A stretch of DNA of 42,711 nt. It comes from an uncultured Lachnospiraceae bacterium. GTDB taxonomy: Bacteria > Bacillota > Clostridia > Lachnospirales > Lachnospiraceae. Location of the stretch: NCBI GenBank assembly GCA_947624815.1, contig CANQME010000012.1, positions 1 to 42,711 on the forward strand, in the 5' to 3' direction. The position numbers and the translations under genes are program-made. Positions 7,755 through 41,590 of the stretch are shown here, piece by piece (the stretch's first letter is position 1; every line of letters begins with the position of its first letter). The notes under the pieces are model-generated. The model ran no database searches. It was not told where the DNA came from and saw nothing but the letters and a program-made list of their open reading frames with translations.

Positions 7755-8849
7755 GTGAAACAGAAATGGAAAGAATGGCTTCCAGAAATTCTGGCGGTTG
7801 CTATTTTTATGCTTGTGGAAATCATCGATTTCACGGGTGTTGTCCCTTTTCAGCGCAGAGATAAATTTGAGCTGATCAGCAATAGCGCCATGTTTGCGGT
7901 TGCCTTGTATATATTCTTCCGGTCTGAATTCTCCCTTCGGTCAGATGACGAATGTGAGCTGAAAAGCATTTGTAGTAATATTCTTGTGTCTGCAATAGCA
8001 TTTCCCATGAATATCGGTGTGTTTCAGCATACGATCAGACGGGAGCAGTTCTTTGCGGATATCTGGGGTGTGCATCTCTGTTGGCTCCTTTGGATGGCAG
8101 TACAGATATTATTTTTGACAAAACTTGGACAGGCGCTGTTGACAGCGGCCCAGGGGTTTCTTGACTGGATAAAGGAAATTATTGGACACGCAGGAGCAGT
8201 GCTTACTCATGTTTTTGAAGCATTTGAAAAGCTTGAGAGACAAAAGCTTCTGGTATTGTCTTTTGGCAGTTTGAGTTGGATTGTATATTTGGGTGTCAGG
8301 ATTCATATCGTTGGAACGACGGCCGCCCTATCGGATTCAGATTTCTGGTGGGAAAGCATATGGGTTTGGGCCATTTCTCTTGCCATCTGTTTTCTTGTGC
8401 AGATCTTCCCGGAAATTCTTCGTAAGGCCATTGATGTGCTGCAAAAAGGAAACAGCGGCAGAGTGACAGCTGCTGCGATACTTTTTGTACTGGTCACCGT
8501 AATGGCCGTATATCCGCCGTTTTTTAAGACGATGTTGTTTCTTGTCATAAGCCTGTTTATACCGGGGGTTTTGTTGTGGAATTTTGTAAAGAAAATATCT
8601 CAGATAGAGATATCTGCGGGAGACGGCGATCATGAAGTGTCGGAGCGTAGGATTGGAATCAACCTGCGGGATCTAAGGGCTGTTATGTTCGCTTTCATTT
8701 TTCTGCCAATGACGTTGCTTGTTCTTATAACAGCGTACCTTCCCGATGGCAGAAATATCATTGTGAACAAGTCCCTTACGGATGCTGCCACATGGATAGA
8801 GTTTATAAATGCGGTGGCGGAAGTCTCTAAGACGATACTTGATTTATAA
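7755..8849 (+). CDS. Unrecognised polytopic membrane protein, module gene 1
   Basis: A 364-residue protein with roughly eight or nine hydrophobic segments (near 8-26, 43-57, 75-90, 104-122, 172-190, 206-222, 238-256, 258-276, 310-330). The start is GTG 7755, with a purine-rich AAAGGGGGCGGAAGG just upstream. A cytoplasmic loop or amphipathic helix (about 123-170) contains FEAFEKLERQK. I recognise no domain, no MotA/ZorA-type motif and no transporter signature. It is followed 18 bases later by a second membrane protein and a third overlapping that, so the three probably form one complex. Composition is A/T-richer than the glycan genes on both sides, suggesting separate acquisition. Confidence 0.75.
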   Translation: MKQKWKEWLPEILAVAIFMLVEIIDFTGVVPFQRRDKFELISNSAMFAVALYIFFRSEFSLRSDDECELKSICSNILVSAIAFPMNIGVFQHTIRREQFFADIWGVHLCWLLWMAVQILFLTKLGQALLTAAQGFLDWIKEIIGHAGAVLTHVFEAFEKLERQKLLVLSFGSLSWIVYLGVRIHIVGTTAALSDSDFWWESIWVWAISLAICFLVQIFPEILRKAIDVLQKGNSGRVTAAAILFVLVTVMAVYPPFFKTMLFLVISLFIPGVLLWNFVKKISQIEISAGDGDHEVSERRIGINLRDLRAVMFAFIFLPMTLLVLITAYLPDGRNIIVNKSLTDAATWIEFINAVAEVSKTILDL

Positions 8850-8867
8850 TATGATGACAGGATAAGG

Positions 8868-10058
8868 TTGGTGGATAGTGTGGATGATGTAATAGCGGTT
8901 ATCAGATTCTGCTGTGTGATTGGTACAGTCGCCATATGTCTTGGACTGATTATCTCCAGGATTCTCAGGTGGCTTGCGCCTGCTGATAAGAGGGAAGGAA
9001 GGCTTAATATCGCGGCGTGGATCGCAGGGGCCGTGTTGGCGGGCGAGGGTACGTTATTTTATGTGTGGAAGGTATCGGGAGATGACAAGATAGCACATGT
9101 AAAAGCTATTTATTTTAATGCAATTCAGACATTGATTATTTCCCTTTTTGCAACGGTCACAGTCGCGTCCATAGTCGAACTCTTGCTTCTTATTGGTAAG
9201 GTAATGCTTTTGGGATGGAAGCTTATTATCCATGCCAAAGATCAGAAGGAGGGATTAAAAAAAGAAGCGGATGACTATAAAGATGCACTAAACAATCCTG
9301 CCGTTATGTTTACGGTAGCGTGGGGGATATTAGCGCTATTTCTTATGCTTCCATTCTTTACAGGGGAGCAGGGGTCAGGGCTGATAGATACTTGGGTGAA
9401 AGGAACCAACAGCATTGCCGTCTGGTTTGATATGGATGCGAAACCCAGTGACCAGGGGACGCTGGGTAATGTAGGGTCATATATATTATTATATATTATC
9501 GTTATAGGCGTAGGAGTAGCGGTAATTAAGATATTTTACTCGCTTATCAAGCATCTATTTAAAAAAGAAAATAACAGTTTCATTGATGAATATTCCAACC
9601 CCATGGCACTAATGGCAGTTGGGGTGGCTTTACTGTGGTCATTAAGACTTAAAGTATTTCAGATGACAAGCCGCAGGAAGTTGATTTTCGAGTTATTCAA
9701 ATGTTTTGCAGCTGTAATTATCGTATTTACGATTGCGATCCTGACATTGGAAATCATCCGACTGCTAATGGATATGCGTGAGAAGATCATTCGTCAGGAA
9801 GCAAGATACCTGTTTATTTTTCTGGTGGGTCAATGTACCATGATGCTGATGGATATTCTGATATTGGTTTGCGGTGCATTGGATAATTCCGTTAACAGTT
9901 TGCCATTTCATAAAATGTTTGAACTTGAAGATAAAATGCGGGCAAAAATGAAGAAGATTATAGATGATGAGGCGGATGACAGAACGGATTCCATGGCTGA
10001 AACCAGTGACCGGCATAGGACGTTTCTGGTGTTTTCAGGGAGAACGACGAAGAAGTGA
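8868..10058 (+). CDS. Unrecognised polytopic membrane protein, module gene 2
   Basis: A 396-residue protein with about seven or eight hydrophobic segments (near 9-34, 47-65, 81-110, 145-165, 205-228, 248-262, 275-300, 316-338) and a charged cytoplasmic tail rich in Asp, Glu and Lys (about 350-396). In-frame starts are TTG 8868, GTG 8871 and GTG 8880; the AAGG at 8864-8867 makes 8871 or 8880 equally possible. The stop overlaps the ribosome site of the next gene, implying tight co-translation. No conserved motif was recognised. Its layout (membrane core plus acidic tail) is compatible with a sensor or channel subunit, which is inference only. Confidence 0.75.
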   Translation: MVDSVDDVIAVIRFCCVIGTVAICLGLIISRILRWLAPADKREGRLNIAAWIAGAVLAGEGTLFYVWKVSGDDKIAHVKAIYFNAIQTLIISLFATVTVASIVELLLLIGKVMLLGWKLIIHAKDQKEGLKKEADDYKDALNNPAVMFTVAWGILALFLMLPFFTGEQGSGLIDTWVKGTNSIAVWFDMDAKPSDQGTLGNVGSYILLYIIVIGVGVAVIKIFYSLIKHLFKKENNSFIDEYSNPMALMAVGVALLWSLRLKVFQMTSRRKLIFELFKCFAAVIIVFTIAILTLEIIRLLMDMREKIIRQEARYLFIFLVGQCTMMLMDILILVCGALDNSVNSLPFHKMFELEDKMRAKMKKIIDDEADDRTDSMAETSDRHRTFLVFSGRTTKK

Positions 10059-35530: not shown

Positions 35531-36124
35531 GTGGAAATAATTGAAAAAATAATTAAAATGGCGAAAGAAAATAATGGTGTGGTTACTACAGCGATGATTG
35601 TTGCGGCAGGTTTTTCACGTGGGAATATTAAATATTTGGTTGACAAAGGAAAACTGGAGAAATCTTCCAGAGGAGTATATATTTTACCGGGAGTCTGGGA
35701 CGATGAAATATTCAATTTGCAGAATCGTTTTAAAAAAGGCATATATTCTCATGAAACCGCGCTGTTTTTGTGGGATTTGACAGATAGAACACCAAATAAG
35801 TACCATATGACATTTCCATTGAATTACAATTTGAAAAATCCCAAGGAAGAGGATATTCAATGCGCACAGTGCAAAAAAGAGTTATACAGTTTGGGATTAA
35901 CAGAGGTGATCACACCAGGAAGACATATCGTAAAAGCTTATAGTGCGGAGCGTACACTTTGCGATATTTTAATACCCCGTAGTCATGTGGACATTCAGAT
36001 GGCAGCTGAGGCGTTTAAGCGTTATGCTGTCAGAGTGGATAGAAACATTCCGCTATTGTCAGAGTACGCAAAAATACTAAAAGTTGAAGCTAAGATCAGA
36101 GCGTATCTGGAGGTATTGCTATGA
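35531..36124 (+). CDS. abiEi: AbiEi-type antitoxin of a type IV toxin-antitoxin system
   Basis: A 197-residue protein with an N-terminal winged helix (TTAMIVAAGFSRGNIKYLVDKGKLEKSSRGVYILPG) and the AbiEi core: YSHETALFLWDLTDRTPNKYHMTFP and ERTLCDILIPRS. Start GTG 35531 with a distant AAGG; no better ATG exists in frame. AbiEi proteins repress their own promoter and counter the nucleotidyltransferase toxin AbiEii, normally encoded by an overlapping gene. Here the overlapping ATGA is present, but the toxin frame stops after 15 codons, so this is an orphan antitoxin, possibly protecting against related toxins elsewhere. Confidence 0.88.
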   Translation: MEIIEKIIKMAKENNGVVTTAMIVAAGFSRGNIKYLVDKGKLEKSSRGVYILPGVWDDEIFNLQNRFKKGIYSHETALFLWDLTDRTPNKYHMTFPLNYNLKNPKEEDIQCAQCKKELYSLGLTEVITPGRHIVKAYSAERTLCDILIPRSHVDIQMAAEAFKRYAVRVDRNIPLLSEYAKILKVEAKIRAYLEVLL

Positions 36125-36168
36125 AAAATGTAATGCAGTTAAAAATGGTAATTTTGCTGGATAGTTAA
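36121..36168 (+). pseudogene. abiEii: Truncated abiEii toxin start
   Basis: The frame begins MKNVMQLK in the expected ATGA overlap with abiEi, which is how clostridial AbiEii proteins start, then shifts to unrelated residues and ends at TAA 36166 after 15 codons. The body of the nucleotidyltransferase is gone; I find no later piece of it. The following 36169-36348 shows nothing I can name. Confidence 0.7.
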
Positions 36169-36348: not shown

Positions 36349-36377
36349 TTGACTTATCTATCCGCAGCGCATATAAT
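36349..36377 (+). promoter_or_regulatory. Strong sigma-A promoter of the type III antitoxin RNA
   Basis: TTGACT (36349-36354), 17 bases, TATAAT (36372-36377). The predicted transcript start, about 7 bases later, falls at the first base of the first antitoxin repeat (36384), as expected for this class of locus. Confidence 0.85.
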
Positions 36378-36383
36378 AAGAGT

Positions 36384-36491
36384 GTGGGTGTATCTCAGCC
36401 CTAAATGAGAAAATATTACGTGGGCTTCTCTTGGCCCAAATCAAGACAGTTACAAGTGAGTGTTTCGCCACTCCAAACGCGGATGCAGCAG
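36384..36491 (+). ncRNA. Type III antitoxin RNA: three tandem ~36-nt pseudoknot repeats
   Basis: Three diverged units start with GTGGG/GTGGG/GTGAG at 36384, 36420 and 36456. Each can form an H-type pseudoknot with pairs at matching offsets. Unit 1: GGGT/GCCC stem, loop TCTCA (36393-36397) with TGAGA (36406-36410). Unit 2: TGGGC/GCCCA stem, loop TCTTG (36429-36433) with CAAGA (36442-36446). Unit 3: GAGTG/CACTC stem, loop TTCGC (36464-36468) with GCGGA (36479-36483, one G-U). Sequence changes while pairing is kept. The unit length and design match ToxI/AntiQ antitoxins, which are cut into single pseudoknots by their own toxin and wrap around it. Confidence 0.85.
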
Positions 36492-36519
36492 CGGAGGCAA
36501 GATCATCTTACCTCCGCTG
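36489..36519 (+). terminator. Attenuating terminator between antitoxin RNA and toxin
   Basis: Arms CAGCGGAGG (36489-36497) and CCTCCGCTG (36511-36519) pair perfectly over 9 bp, with a smaller inner AAGA/TCTT pairing. Only a short T run (TTT) follows, so it should leak. Type III loci use such a leaky terminator to keep antitoxin RNA in excess of toxin message. Confidence 0.8.
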
Positions 36520-36537
36520 TTTCACAGGGAGACAGAA

Positions 36538-37023
36538 ATGGATAACATCAAACTCTATGAGATCTCTCCGGCCTATATTGATTATCTTGTCCCTTATGTT
36601 TCCCATCTTTTCCAGAATAAACAGGCCGGGCAGCAGAATGAACGAAAATACATAGGTGTTGTATTGTCTGTTAATGACATGGACTATTTTGCACCCCTGT
36701 CTTCCTTTAAGGAGAAGCATCGGAGGATGCAGACGGGACTCGATTTCATTAAGATTAGAAATTATGCGGTTATCAACCTTAACAACATGTTTCCCGTTCC
36801 TGAGGGACAGTATAGTTACGTAGATATTTCCCAGGAAAGAAATCCTCATTATAAGTCTCTGTTGCTGGCAGAATACCGATATATCAAGTCCATCCAGGAG
36901 CGGATCAGGAAGAATGCTGCGACGCTCTATCACTTGAAAATCAGTGGACCGGAATCTGCTCTGACAAGAAGGTGTAATGATTTTGCAAAGCTGGAGACGT
37001 TATGCTTGAAGTATCACCGATAG
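36538..37023 (+). CDS. ToxN/AbiQ-like endoribonuclease toxin (type III TA)
   Basis: A 161-residue protein, close to the usual ~170 for ToxN/AbiQ. ATG 36538 has CAGGGAGA just upstream. The opening LYEISPAYIDYLVPYVSHLF, then RKYIGVVLSVNDMDYFAPLSSFKEKH (the family hallmark, 37-61) and later NLNNMFPVP and SLLLAEYRYIKS fit the toxin fold. These RNases cut mRNA and phage RNA at short A-rich sites and process their own antitoxin; they stop phage growth by abortive infection. The antitoxin repeats, promoter and terminator are all in place upstream, so the locus looks intact. Which subfamily (ToxIN, CptIN, TenpIN) is uncertain. Confidence 0.88.
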   Translation: MDNIKLYEISPAYIDYLVPYVSHLFQNKQAGQQNERKYIGVVLSVNDMDYFAPLSSFKEKHRRMQTGLDFIKIRNYAVINLNNMFPVPEGQYSYVDISQERNPHYKSLLLAEYRYIKSIQERIRKNAATLYHLKISGPESALTRRCNDFAKLETLCLKYHR

Positions 37024-37678: not shown

Positions 37679-38518
37679 ATGGTTGTATCAACAGGTAATG
37701 ATGATTTTCTTACATTTCAACGCCAAACCCTCGACAAGTCGCCGCAGGATGTTCGGGCGTACTGGACGCCGGAGCGAAAGAAGACGGCGATTCCTGCAAG
37801 CAGAGCCGGTACGGGAGTGAATCTGCCGGATGGATCTGATGCGCCACTACAGGATGGCGCCAACGCCGCGCCTGCGTCCGATCCCAGGCAGGCAGATCTG
37901 AGCCAAATGCCATTTATCACGGGAGGTAAGCTGTTCTTCACCCTGGACGGCGTGGACTACGTTGCAAGCGGGAATATCTTTATGAAAAACAACTTGCTTC
38001 TGACAGCAGCGCATTGCGTTCAGGATGACACTACAGGTCACCTCGCTGAAAACTTCGTATTCGAGCGGTGCTACACGGGAGAGTTGTCCACGGAGGATTT
38101 CACGTTCAGAACTGTCGCGCTCAAAGAGAACTGGTACACCGAAAAGGACAACAGATGGGACTACGCCATCGCGATTTTGAACCGTGCTTCCACGGTTGAA
38201 AAGCCGCTGCAATATCGGATCGAGAACCTTCTCGGCAGAACGGTGACGGCATTGGGCTACCCCACGGATATTTTCGACGGTGCTCAGATGATGTACATAA
38301 CCGGCACGGTCAGCGAGCGGGCAGATTCGTGGATGATCCGCGGCGGCAAGCTGGCGAACGGTGCTTCCGGCGGCGCGTGGGTACTGGAAGATGGCGAAAC
38401 GGTGGTCGGGCTCAATTCCTTCGGCGGAACGACTGCCAAAGGCGGGGCCTACATGGGTTCGCCCAAATTCGATGCGGAATTCGACAAACTATATAATTAC
38501 GTTCTGACACTCATATAG
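37679..38518 (+). CDS. Trypsin-like serine protease A, no signal peptide
   Basis: A 279-residue chymotrypsin-fold protease. The triad is His112 in LLTAAHC, Asp161 in WDYAIAIL and Ser230 in NGASGGAW. An N-terminal segment SPQDVRAYWTPERKK (21-35) resembles the YWTPER propeptide motif of secreted bacterial and fungal trypsins, but the first residues are polar and no signal peptide or membrane helix is visible, so it should stay in the cytosol or leave by another route. A Pro/Ala/Gly/Asp linker (40-75) joins the parts. ATG 37679 follows GAGGAGGG. It is the first of two tandem paralogues. Confidence 0.88.
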   Translation: MVVSTGNDDFLTFQRQTLDKSPQDVRAYWTPERKKTAIPASRAGTGVNLPDGSDAPLQDGANAAPASDPRQADLSQMPFITGGKLFFTLDGVDYVASGNIFMKNNLLLTAAHCVQDDTTGHLAENFVFERCYTGELSTEDFTFRTVALKENWYTEKDNRWDYAIAILNRASTVEKPLQYRIENLLGRTVTALGYPTDIFDGAQMMYITGTVSERADSWMIRGGKLANGASGGAWVLEDGETVVGLNSFGGTTAKGGAYMGSPKFDAEFDKLYNYVLTLI

Positions 38519-38528
38519 GGGGACGCAG

Positions 38529-39359
38529 ATGAATAACAACCCAAACGGCGGGCGGTTTATGCCGATGCAACTGGGCAGCATTGGCAATTCGCCCTATGAC
38601 ATCCGTGAATATTGGACGCCCGAACGGAAGAAGGCGGCGACTCCGGTTATAGGCGGCGCGCCTATTTCACAGGGAATGCCCGGTGCGGACAATGCACCGC
38701 CGCCTCCGCCGCCAACCGATCCGGCACAGGCGAATCTCGCCGAAATGCCGTTCACCACAGGCGGGAAGCTGTTCTATTCCATGAACGGCAAGGACTTCGT
38801 CGCGAGCGGCAACATTTTTATGAAGAACAATATGCTTCTGACGGCAGCTCACTGCATCCAGGATAAGGATTCCGGCAGTATCGGCGAGAATTATGTTTTT
38901 GAACTTGACTATACAGGGGAGCTTTCGTCCGAGGATTTTACATTCAAAACCATAGCTTTACGCGAAAACTGGTATCAGACCAAGAATGAGAAATACGATT
39001 ACGCCATCGCGATTCTGGACAAGCCGTCCAAAATCGCAACGCCCCTTCGCTACACCACCGACACCCAGATTCGGGACAAGCAGATCACCTCGATGGGTTA
39101 TCCGACCGCATATTTTGACGGTGCGCAGATGATGTTTGTTAAGGGCCTTGTGGTACCGATTTACGGGCATTGGGCGATGTTCGGAAGTAAGATGGGAGCG
39201 GGTGCATCAGGCGGCGCGTGGGTACTCGACGACAACGTGACGGCTGTTGGACTGAACGCCTACGTTTCCGTATCCGGAAAGGAAATCCTATATTCCGGCT
39301 CACCGCTGTTTGATGCAGAGTTTGACAGTCTGTATCAGTATGCGCTCACACTGATGTGA
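38529..39359 (+). CDS. Trypsin-like serine protease B, paralogue of A
   Basis: A 276-residue protease with the triad His108 (LLTAAHC), Asp157 (YDYAIAIL) and Ser227 (GASGGAW). It repeats the layout of protease A: SPYDIREYWTPERKK (21-35), then a Pro-rich linker with a run of seven Pro broken only near its end, then the catalytic domain. No signal peptide. It starts 10 bases after protease A, so the pair arose by tandem duplication and is co-translated. Substrate pockets could differ: the stretches before the Ser (KLANGASGG versus KMGAGASGG) and after it have diverged. Confidence 0.88.
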   Translation: MNNNPNGGRFMPMQLGSIGNSPYDIREYWTPERKKAATPVIGGAPISQGMPGADNAPPPPPPTDPAQANLAEMPFTTGGKLFYSMNGKDFVASGNIFMKNNMLLTAAHCIQDKDSGSIGENYVFELDYTGELSSEDFTFKTIALRENWYQTKNEKYDYAIAILDKPSKIATPLRYTTDTQIRDKQITSMGYPTAYFDGAQMMFVKGLVVPIYGHWAMFGSKMGAGASGGAWVLDDNVTAVGLNAYVSVSGKEILYSGSPLFDAEFDSLYQYALTLM

Positions 39360-39801: not shown

Positions 39802-39846
39802 TTGCGGTTTCGCGGCATTTCCGATATACTGAAAATAGAGTTTGTG
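39802..39846 (+). promoter_or_regulatory. Probable promoter and leader of the AAA-ATPase gene
   Basis: TTGCGG (39802-39807), 17 bases and TATACT (39825-39830) form a weak promoter. The block from 39813 on is conserved in the remnant at 34468-34500, which supports it as a real upstream region of this gene family. Confidence 0.5.
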
Positions 39847-39895
39847 TGGGCGTATGAGAGGTCTGGTCATGTCTGGACGAAAAGGGGGACAAACT

Positions 39896-41590
39896 ATGGT
39901 GAAGGTGAAGAGACCGCTGCCTATCGGGACGGAGTTTTTTGATGAACTAAGGAAAAAAGAGTATTACTATGTGGATAAGTCCAGGCTGATCGCGGAACTT
40001 CTGCGTAGTCCAACCAAGGTAACGCTGTTCACGCGGCCTCGGCGGTTTGGAAAGACGCTGGCGATGACGACGTTAAAATGCTTCTTTGAGATCGGAACGG
40101 ATCCGTCGCTCTTTGAAGGACTGGCGATCTCACGGGAGAGGGAGTTGTGTGAGCGGCACATGGGGAAGTACCCGGTGGTGTTCGTAACGCTGAAAGACGT
40201 GGACGCGGCCAGCTTCACCAGGGCCAGGGAGCAGATGGGAAGCGTGATCGCGGAAGCGGCTGACCGACTGAGTTTTCTGGAGAGAAGCGAGAATCTTGAG
40301 GAAAGGGATAAAGAGAAATTCCGCGCACTTCGGCATTACAGCATGTCGAAGCAGGCGATGACGGACAGTCTGTGGACGCTTTGCCATCTTTTGGAGAAGC
40401 ACTATGGCCGCAAAACGGTCCTGCTGATCGACGAGTACGACGTGCCGCTGCAGAAGGCATTCTATCATCATTACTATGATGAGATGGAGCAGCTGATCCG
40501 CAGCATGTTCAGCCAGGTGCTGAAGACGAACGAAAGTCTTGAGTTTGCAGTGCTGACCGGGTGTTTGCGGATCTCGAAGGAGAGTATCTTCACTGGGATG
40601 AATAACCTGCATGTGCTGACGGTTGCAGATCCGCGGTTCAGCGGTTATTTCGGATTCACCGACTGCGAGGTCAGACATTTTTTGGAATATTACGGCATGC
40701 CGGACGCATGGGATGAGGTTCGCGAGTGGTATGATGGATACCGGTTCGGGGATCAGGATATCTACTGCCCGTGGGACGTCATCAACTATATGGATCTTCT
40801 TCTGGCGGATCCGCAGGCCCCGCCTCAGAATTTCTGGGCGAATTCCAGCAGCAACGACGCGGTACGGGAATTTGTGCGGCGGATGGACGCCGGTTCGGCC
40901 CGCCGGGAGCTGCAGGTGCTGGCAGACGGCGGTACGGTGAAGAAGCGGATCCATCAGGAGCTGACGTACCGGGAGATGTATACGACGGTGGAGAACCTGT
41001 GGAGCCTGCTCTACATGACCGGATACCTGACAAGTGCCGGGAAAGCGGATGAGGACGGGATACCGCTGACCATCCCGAACCGGGAGATCCGTGCGATCTT
41101 CGCGGACCAGATCATGGAACTGTTCCGGGAAGAGACGCGGAATGACGGAGAATCGCTGAAGGAACTGTGCGATGCATTCGCGGCCGGAGATGCTGCCGGG
41201 GTGGAGAAGGCGTTCGGCGGCTACCTGCGGCGGGCGATCAGCGTCCGTGACACGTCGGTACGGAAGGCGCGGAAGGAGAGCTTCTATCACGGAATCCTGA
41301 TGGGGCTTCTGGCGTACAAGGCGGACTGGATCGTGACCAGTAACCGGGAGAGCGGCGAGGGCTACAGCGACATCCTGGTAGAGGCCGAGGACAGCAGCCT
41401 CGGGATTGTCATCGTGATGAAGTACGCGGAGGACGGTAACCTGGAGTCTGCGTCGCGGGCGGCGCTTGCGCAGATCGAAACGAGGCACTATGATGAGGTA
41501 TTTGCAGACGAAGGCATTGAGAATGTGCTGAAATATGGGATCGCCTGCTACAAGAAGCGATGCCGGGTGGCGCTGGGGGATGGATGCTAA
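39896..41590 (+). CDS. AAA-ATPase / PD-(D/E)XK (DUF1703-type) protein with altered nuclease motif
   Basis: A 564-residue protein started from ATG 39896 behind AAAGGGGG. The N-terminal opening LPIGTEFFDELRKKEYYYVDKS, the P-loop RPRRFGKT (47-54) and Walker B VLLIDEYD (Asp179-Glu180) define an AAA-ATPase-like domain; the C-terminal part is a PD-(D/E)XK-type domain with SNRESGEGYSDI (Asp492) and IVIVMKYAED (Lys509). In relatives I know, the residue two before that Lys is Glu; here it is Val507 (GTG, one base from GAG), so nuclease activity may be lost. These families are abundant in Lachnospiraceae and Bacteroidetes; their role is unsettled, with links to mobile elements or defence. Confidence 0.85.
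   Translation: MVKVKRPLPIGTEFFDELRKKEYYYVDKSRLIAELLRSPTKVTLFTRPRRFGKTLAMTTLKCFFEIGTDPSLFEGLAISRERELCERHMGKYPVVFVTLKDVDAASFTRAREQMGSVIAEAADRLSFLERSENLEERDKEKFRALRHYSMSKQAMTDSLWTLCHLLEKHYGRKTVLLIDEYDVPLQKAFYHHYYDEMEQLIRSMFSQVLKTNESLEFAVLTGCLRISKESIFTGMNNLHVLTVADPRFSGYFGFTDCEVRHFLEYYGMPDAWDEVREWYDGYRFGDQDIYCPWDVINYMDLLLADPQAPPQNFWANSSSNDAVREFVRRMDAGSARRELQVLADGGTVKKRIHQELTYREMYTTVENLWSLLYMTGYLTSAGKADEDGIPLTIPNREIRAIFADQIMELFREETRNDGESLKELCDAFAAGDAAGVEKAFGGYLRRAISVRDTSVRKARKESFYHGILMGLLAYKADWIVTSNRESGEGYSDILVEAEDSSLGIVIVMKYAEDGNLESASRAALAQIETRHYDEVFADEGIENVLKYGIACYKKRCRVALGDGC

Follow-up and report, generated by a model that had tools for sequence, protein, structure and literature searches.

The window analyzed here, that is, a stretch of 42,711 nucleotides that is contig 12 in the genome of an uncultured Lachnospiraceae bacterium (3.54 Mb, 88% complete), contains at positions 36349–37023 what is very probably an active-looking variant of a type III toxin–antitoxin (TA) locus of the ToxIN family, whose antitoxin consists of three unlike units in a defined order (table 1). 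The near-consensus promoter of the original prediction was confirmed, and so was the hairpin between antitoxin and toxin, though its U run is weak and the terminator scan of the + strand did not include it among its listed terminators. The −10 box is separated from unit 1 by 6 nt, and transcription is predicted to start at G36384, the first base of this unit. The motif AGGGAG is read from the sequence just 5′ of the toxN ATG.

Table 1. Features of the ToxIN-family locus in the window
Feature	Position	Strand	Score or support
Sigma-70-type promoter, TTGACT-17-TATAAT	36349..36377	+	11/12 matches
Antitoxin unit 1, H-type pseudoknot: stem 1 GGGU/GCCC, stem 2 UCUCA/UGAGA, 3′ tail AAAUAUUAC	36384..36419	+	
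Antitoxin unit 2, pseudoknot: stem 1 GGGC/GCCC, stem 2 UCUUG/CAAGA, tail CAGUUACAA	36420..36455	+	
Antitoxin unit 3, pseudoknot: stem 1 GAGUG/CACUC, stem 2 UUCGC/GCGGA	36456..36491	+	
Hairpin with weak U run, a putative leaky terminator that shares its first bases with unit 3	36484..36524	+	−23.4 kcal/mol, z −5.39, inverted repeat
toxN, 161-aa ToxN/AbiQ-family endoribonuclease toxin, start ATG 36538	36538..37023	+	ORF of 161 codons

By sequence, predicted fold and active-site residues, the toxin is a ToxN, in agreement with the ToxN/AbiQ-like gene proposed initially. PF13958 is the sole Pfam family found at E 0.001 (7.9e-46, 156.6 bits, cut-off 25), the AbiQ model of PADLOC matches at 8.1e-36, and NCBIfam has no model for the protein. 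The sequence matches four solved ToxN/AbiQ chains (4ato, 2xd0, 7d8o, and 4glk). The same four were retrieved by Foldseek (E 1e-8 to 1e-11, TM 0.75–0.80; AbiQ 4glk at 1.1e-8) with the AlphaFold (AF2) model of the toxin (pLDDT 90.5), which was built from 23 aligned proteins of the window and the loci; CptN (4rmo) follows as a weak fifth match (E 1.9e-3, TM 0.53). In Escherichia coli ToxN, the active site comprises Lys33, Thr52, Ser53, and Lys55, and Lys33 is replaced by arginine in clusters 4 and 5 (PMC8860590, partial text). These four residues are aligned by sequence to R36, S55, S56, and K58 of the window toxin, which are invariant in 23 out of 23 aligned toxins. The change of Thr to Ser at position 52 is a conservative one.

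An independent scan for H-type pseudoknots located one in each unit (36386–36410, 36421–36446, and 36458–36483) with a single pairing register, in which all stem pairs read originally (TCTCA/TGAGA, TCTTG/CAAGA, and TTCGC/GCGGA) are present. The units are exactly 36 nt long. In 300 dinucleotide shuffles of 36384–36500, neither the score of the third-ranking pseudoknot nor the summed score of the top three was reached, and the R1 array model matches 36384–36490 at 113.2 bits (the window being one of its 29 training rows). Similarly to known ToxIN antitoxins, the units are pseudoknots of ~34–36 nt, but a tandem array of (near-)identical nucleotide repeats is absent from the window. In detail, Tandem Repeats Finder returned 0 rows for it, and its adjacent copies are at best 0.62 identical, a value equal to or slightly over the maximum of 20 shuffles, which ranges from 0.56 to 0.62 over three entries of the window's own locus. 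The Rfam covariance search gave no match at the gathering score, only matches far beneath the cut-off; this null is uninformative, since five out of five plain ToxN loci were missed as well. A preQ1-II riboswitch match overlapping unit 1 (20.2 bits vs. a gathering score of 47) was rejected as far below threshold.

Relatives were collected by a peptide-pattern scan of genome contigs, which gave 67 loci; because its patterns derive from the window toxin, close relatives are over-represented. Genome searches gave matches in 27 of 200 genomes at the family level, in 9 of 295 at the order level (E 1e-30) and, with PF13958, in 16 of 398 at the phylum level, the window's own genome being counted each time. 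The toxin search of viral contigs gave two loci. Plasmid and phage collections showed no toxin relative of at least 60% identity, and the array DNA search found nothing in them either. On whole genomes, R1 matched in 11 out of 392 (order) and 3 out of 398 (phylum). These matches include arrays of like units from other ToxN loci (L152 and L153), a like-unit array with what looks, by eye, like only the first codons of a toxin (L238), and a match of 54.2 bits (L151).

With the unit types abbreviated as U1, U2, and U3, the order U1-U2-U3 ends 47 of the 94 upstream regions parsed from the pattern scan and the family search (38 distinct, window included). In the tally of the toxin clade, which comprises 76 loci with near-duplicates included, 54 loci are U1-U2-U3 (53 plus L067, whose upstream chance match had given 1123) and eight are U1-U1-U3. 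Minor forms are U1-U3 (one locus), U1-U1 (one), U1 only (three), and U3 only (one). None of the three types lies in the examined flank of seven loci (L052, L058, L062–L065, and L123), of which L058 has three diverged units of its own and L123 a short flank, and one locus has no flank to examine. Of the 64 arrays with at least two such units, 63 end in U3 (54 U1-U2-U3, 8 U1-U1-U3, and 1 U1-U3), the exception being L055. Place 2 is not strictly fixed, since U1 stands there in 8 of the 76 loci. The statement that there are exactly three units is therefore valid for the window and usual in the clade, but not universal, as the tally includes other arrays. That the units are diverged rather than identical proved to be a conserved property of most loci in the toxin clade and not a local decay.

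In the midpoint-rooted toxin tree, the tallied loci with long enough toxins form one clade (63 rows, support 98/96). It includes Bacillota with the three-unit form, Actinomycetota with U1-U1-U3, and Spirochaetota with other variants, and this span suggests that the toxin clade has moved by horizontal transfer. Loci L062–L065 of Treponema and Spirochaetaceae have a single pseudoknot unit before the terminator, upstream of toxN, and are the first branch of the clade as drawn, at a weak fork (90/60). In L009–L014, ~75 extra bases (~155 in L009) lie between the terminator and the start of toxN.

Units at the same position are highly conserved between loci. Over 23 fixed columns in the 38 arrays, the mean identities between loci are 0.96 for U1, 0.86 for U2, and 0.89 for U3, whereas inside one locus they are 0.59 (U1-U2), 0.65 (U1-U3), and 0.54 (U2-U3). 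The nearest neighbors of all 114 units are exclusively same-position units, and for 108 of them even the least similar same-position unit exceeds the best sibling. When only pairs of loci with toxins <62% identical are considered (n = 133, a few toxin rows being fragments), the respective means are still 0.96, 0.85, and 0.89. The flanks are near random, with an identity of 0.32 in the forty bases upstream and 0.38 in forty of the terminator region. This position-specific conservation shows, at the level of sequence, that the divergence of the units is a real finding, and each unit is very probably maintained by selection in its own form. Most of the clade thus carries an ordered set of three different pseudoknots and not a tandem repeat.

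The base changes on both sides of the stems, described originally between the units of one locus, do not represent strict covariation there, but across loci covariation is found. In the 29 of the 38 arrays that were aligned, pairing holds in 99.7% of 754 cells and falls to 36–55% when the partner is slid by 1–3 columns. Both sides are changed in 29 cells compared with 7.9 for shuffles, none of the 500 being as high. Double changes affect five pairs, the shuffled mean being 3.4 and the count of five being reached by 18 of 500 shuffles. Stem 1 of unit 2 contributes three of these pairs and stem 1 of unit 3 one; the fifth, in stem 2 of unit 2, is based on one cell. The measure of further pair types showed no excess over shuffles in these 29 arrays, all 500 being as high. 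So little variation is present in stem 2 of each unit that constraint on structure is there indistinguishable from constraint on sequence. A chance origin of the array is ruled out by the shuffle scan, the conservation across loci, and the compensatory changes.

The window locus shares the promoter, the ~36-nt pseudoknots, the terminator, the toxin fold, and the catalytic residues with the known ToxIN systems of Pectobacterium atrosepticum, Bacillus thuringiensis, and E. coli (2xd0, 4ato, and 7d8o). The antitoxins of the latter, however, are described as arrays of one repeated unit, in contrast to three unlike units conserved by position. According to the parts of the sources at hand, ToxI arrays are of 5.5 × 36 nt and 2.9 × 34 nt (PMC5086642), and E. 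coli ToxI clusters have 3 to 5.6 repeats (PMC8860590). AntiQ-AbiQ of Lactococcus (4glk) resembles the window in toxin family and in having about three units, but AntiQ is given as 2.8 repeats of one 35-nt unit (PMC5086642, in part). Likewise unlike the window, the ToxN/AbiQ-type locus L127 of Lactococcus has an adjacent-copy identity of 1.00. CptIN and TenpIN share the type III logic. CptIN differs in its toxin, 4rmo being only the fifth structural match, and in its repeats, which are of 45 nt (PMC4627078, partial text) as opposed to the 36-nt units of the window.

The adjacent-copy measure compares 32-nt segments at lags of 28–51 in the last 230 nt before the toxin, and it misses most of the array of L009. 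The best value is 0.50–0.75 in the 54 U1-U2-U3 loci, mostly within the range of shuffles, with 0.75 reached in L042 and L051. Outside the clade, 51 ToxN loci were compared: 28 have a value of 0.85 or more, 18 are <0.67, and five lie between; the 18 include some fragments and nine loci that form another group with unlike units. In L072, Tandem Repeats Finder reports 3.1 copies at 100%. The group of nine (L074, L075, L076, L079, L080, L083, L084, L096, and L098) is one ToxN branch with no repeat upstream, where two unlike units, the second larger, are seen by eye; this is perhaps an independent unlike-unit antitoxin. In four other loci (L097, L112, L128, and L129), arrays of like units lie upstream of toxN, and the last unit before the terminator differs.

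Published screens require tandem repeats, as far as their available texts describe (PMC8860590, with Tandem Repeats Finder; PMC5086642), and for this reason the U1-U2-U3 clade is easily missed. In the literature, we found no account of unlike units that are conserved as a set, to the extent that partial texts and an imprecise search by the names ToxIN and ToxI covered it, the founding paper of the type III classification (NAR 2012) lying outside that coverage.

In 18 of the 38 arrays, unit 1 starts 6–7 nt after the −10 box, and its 5′ end would therefore be that of the transcript. In 16 of the other 20, UAACA directly precedes unit 1 (in L038 and L046 after a shift of one base); a weak −10-like match 6 nt upstream in L038 was discounted. 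The same letters commonly end unit 3. Units 1 and 2 end in xAxUUA (36–38 of 38 arrays per base), each base of UUA being kept in 38 out of 38 in unit 2, and this motif is a putative cut site of ToxN. The tail of unit 3 is mostly UAA as opposed to UUA in units 1 and 2. In the window, the tail of unit 1 (AAAUAUUAC) is shifted and off the family consensus, and unit 3, as in L002, is without the 3′ UAA tail usual in relatives. The locus had been described as intact; this stands for the toxin, with its ORF and active site, but because of these two tails it is only likely for the antitoxin.

For the window locus, we infer transcription, cutting, neutralization, phage defence, and the make-up of the complex as follows. 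One promoter would give a transcript whose 5′ end is the first base of unit 1 or an adjacent one. In most cases transcription would end at the hairpin after unit 3, giving an RNA of ~110–140 nt, and in some it would read through, so that ToxN is made. Each unit is predicted to fold as an H-type pseudoknot, ToxN is expected to cut the single-stranded tails that join the units, for which units 1 and 2 have the consensus xAxUUA, and the products would hold ToxN inactive as in known ToxIN. There, processed pseudoknots are held in the active site of ToxN in a closed 3:3 ring (PMC8860590, partial text). The release of ToxN when the antitoxin supply drops during infection, that is, passive activation, is presented by the authors of PMC5772629, in the portion available, as unconfirmed. 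Given the toxin and the pseudoknot family, the ToxIN mechanism is by far the most likely one for the window locus. One transcript would supply one each of the three unlike units, which would be enough for one 3:3 complex.

Exact-pattern scans of viral contigs retrieved seven with unit 1, all seven with an adjacent toxN, plus L142, in which U1-U2-U3 are in order (R1, 100.4 bits) and no toxN was detected over 13.3 kb, either with P0001 at E 1 or with 12 ToxN queries at E 0.01. L142 is a phage with terminase, portal, capsid, tail, and integrase genes, and its sibling phage L138 has an array with toxN at the same place, between flanking blocks of 97.9% identity over 1267 bases and 99.3% over 1099. 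As the promoter region differs too, L138 is to be considered a sister allele rather than the ancestor. The array of L142 has a promoter-like site (10/12) and a hairpin followed by six U, with an energy z of only −1.27 and absent from the list of the terminator scan. It departs from the 29-array alignment at 7 of 67 conserved columns, and six of these departures fall within the nine conserved columns of the inter-unit tails (p 5.6e-6 if changes are independent). The tail columns were defined after the sequence was seen, and two multi-base events may suffice to account for the changes. In working loci, too, departures fall in the tail columns beyond chance (5 of 15). In L142, the pseudoknots are whole and both inter-unit tails are altered. 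This toxin-less array, a single case, is a candidate decoy and a lead. Of the best 80 relatives of the L142 terminase, 77 were searched with R1 (L231–L233 left out), and an array was present in two, both already known with toxN.

A similar case is the pseudo-ToxI of phage PhiTE, a phage-borne ToxI-like RNA without a toxin. According to the portion of PMC3475682 that was available, five groups of bases distinguish pseudo-ToxI from ToxI, only group 4 (27–29) mattered in that it abolished the rescue from over-expressed ToxN, and the anti-phage activity of ToxN was still suppressed. By our reading, group 4 would sit in the 3′ tail, and L142 likewise departs mainly in its tails. PhiTE, as far as that text goes, repeats a single unit, with expansion in escape mutants, whereas L142 has three unlike units in order.

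R1 on 53 stretches gave one supported match beyond those known, L250, and six more at E 0.07–0.76. L250, a viral contig that also matches an integrase and a DNA polymerase exonuclease, has a lone unit-2-type pseudoknot with its tail at 8297–8332 (27.1 bits; the first pair of stem 1 unformed) and no toxN within the 10.2 kb examined of its 38 kb. In L150, one of the R1 matches in bacterial genomes, the sequence at ~1501–1610 is a toxin-less U1-U1-U3 array with a broken unit 3 stem, that is, by its sequence, a decaying copy. The viral pattern matches L234–L236, in G+C-rich DNA with neither toxN nor an array, were dismissed as due to chance. A gene for a PBECR4 nuclease (PF18813, 1.3e-22), preceded by a perfect promoter match and ~220 nt of noncoding DNA, lies 3′ of the L142 array at 7983–8873; it is 91% identical in another phage contig, L139, and is perhaps another RNA-controlled nuclease.

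Several readings of the unlike units were weighed. That formerly identical repeats have decayed and lost their function is highly improbable: units only 54–65% alike, among which Tandem Repeats Finder detects no repeat, are what such a history would leave, but the compensatory changes, the near-invariance of each unit across loci from several families, and the intact ORF and active site of the toxin oppose it, and real decay looks different, as the broken stem of toxin-less L150 indicates. An almost even chance is given to a frozen divergence, in which the units drifted apart once, each was locked by the way its own stem 2 and loop 1 fit together, and any unit fills any place; the number would be fixed at three because drift stopped slippage and homogenization. 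Strand slippage is indeed what the authors suggest for the expansion of the pseudo-ToxI repeats (PMC3475682, in part). The occurrence of U1 at place 2 on several branches of the tree and the single unit of the spirochaete relatives fit this reading, and so does the contrast between the near-invariant stem 2 of each unit and stem 1 of unit 2, which varies with compensation as internal locking predicts. Less easily explained is that U1 remains on average 96% identical between the 133 pairs of distant toxins, beyond the apparent need of a mere binding site, and that U3 holds the last place almost without exception.

The constancy of U3 would rather be expected if only the last unit were special, units 1 and 2 being interchangeable and unit 3, at the border of the terminator, perhaps remaining uncut and sparing the toxin message. 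The different tail of unit 3, missing in the window and L002, and the four loci in which like repeats precede an unlike last unit agree with this. However, unit 2 is itself distinct, is found in 54 of the 76 loci, and keeps the UUA of its tail in every array, and we regard this reading as possible though somewhat unlikely. We also offer, as a conjecture that is probably wrong in its full form, that U1, U2, and U3 are three different subunits closing with three ToxN into one ordered ring, that neutralization needs the full set, and that phages answer with a toxin-less, tail-changed decoy such as L142, which folds but is uncut or bound differently. The loci with U1 at place 2 argue against a strict need for all three units, whereas the position of U3 suggests that at least the end unit matters. 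If the ordered ring were true, neither one unit nor copies made by slippage could supply neutralization.

In the neighborhood of the locus, the stretch 35531–36168 directly upstream has an AbiEi-like antitoxin gene (PADLOC AbiEi, 5.1e-68). Behind this gene, at 36121–36168, the sequence resembles by eye the opening codons of AbiEii before the resemblance breaks off, and a type IV AbiE pair has seemingly been cut off on the ToxIN side. Downstream, 37679–39359 and 39842–41590 cover two adjacent trypsin-like genes and a gene with AAA-ATPase_like and PDDEXK_9 domains.

For the clade as a whole, in Bacillota, Actinomycetota, and Spirochaetota, a tandem-repeat test of type III loci would miss most members. 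The presence of three unlike RNAs conserved by position would offer a route to asking whether places in the 3:3 ring can be told apart, how the ring is assembled, and where ToxN cuts, and the natural variants of the array are ready-made constructs. The sibling phages, one with the full locus (L138) and the other with the tail-altered RNA alone (L142), would represent a natural experiment on RNA counter-defence.
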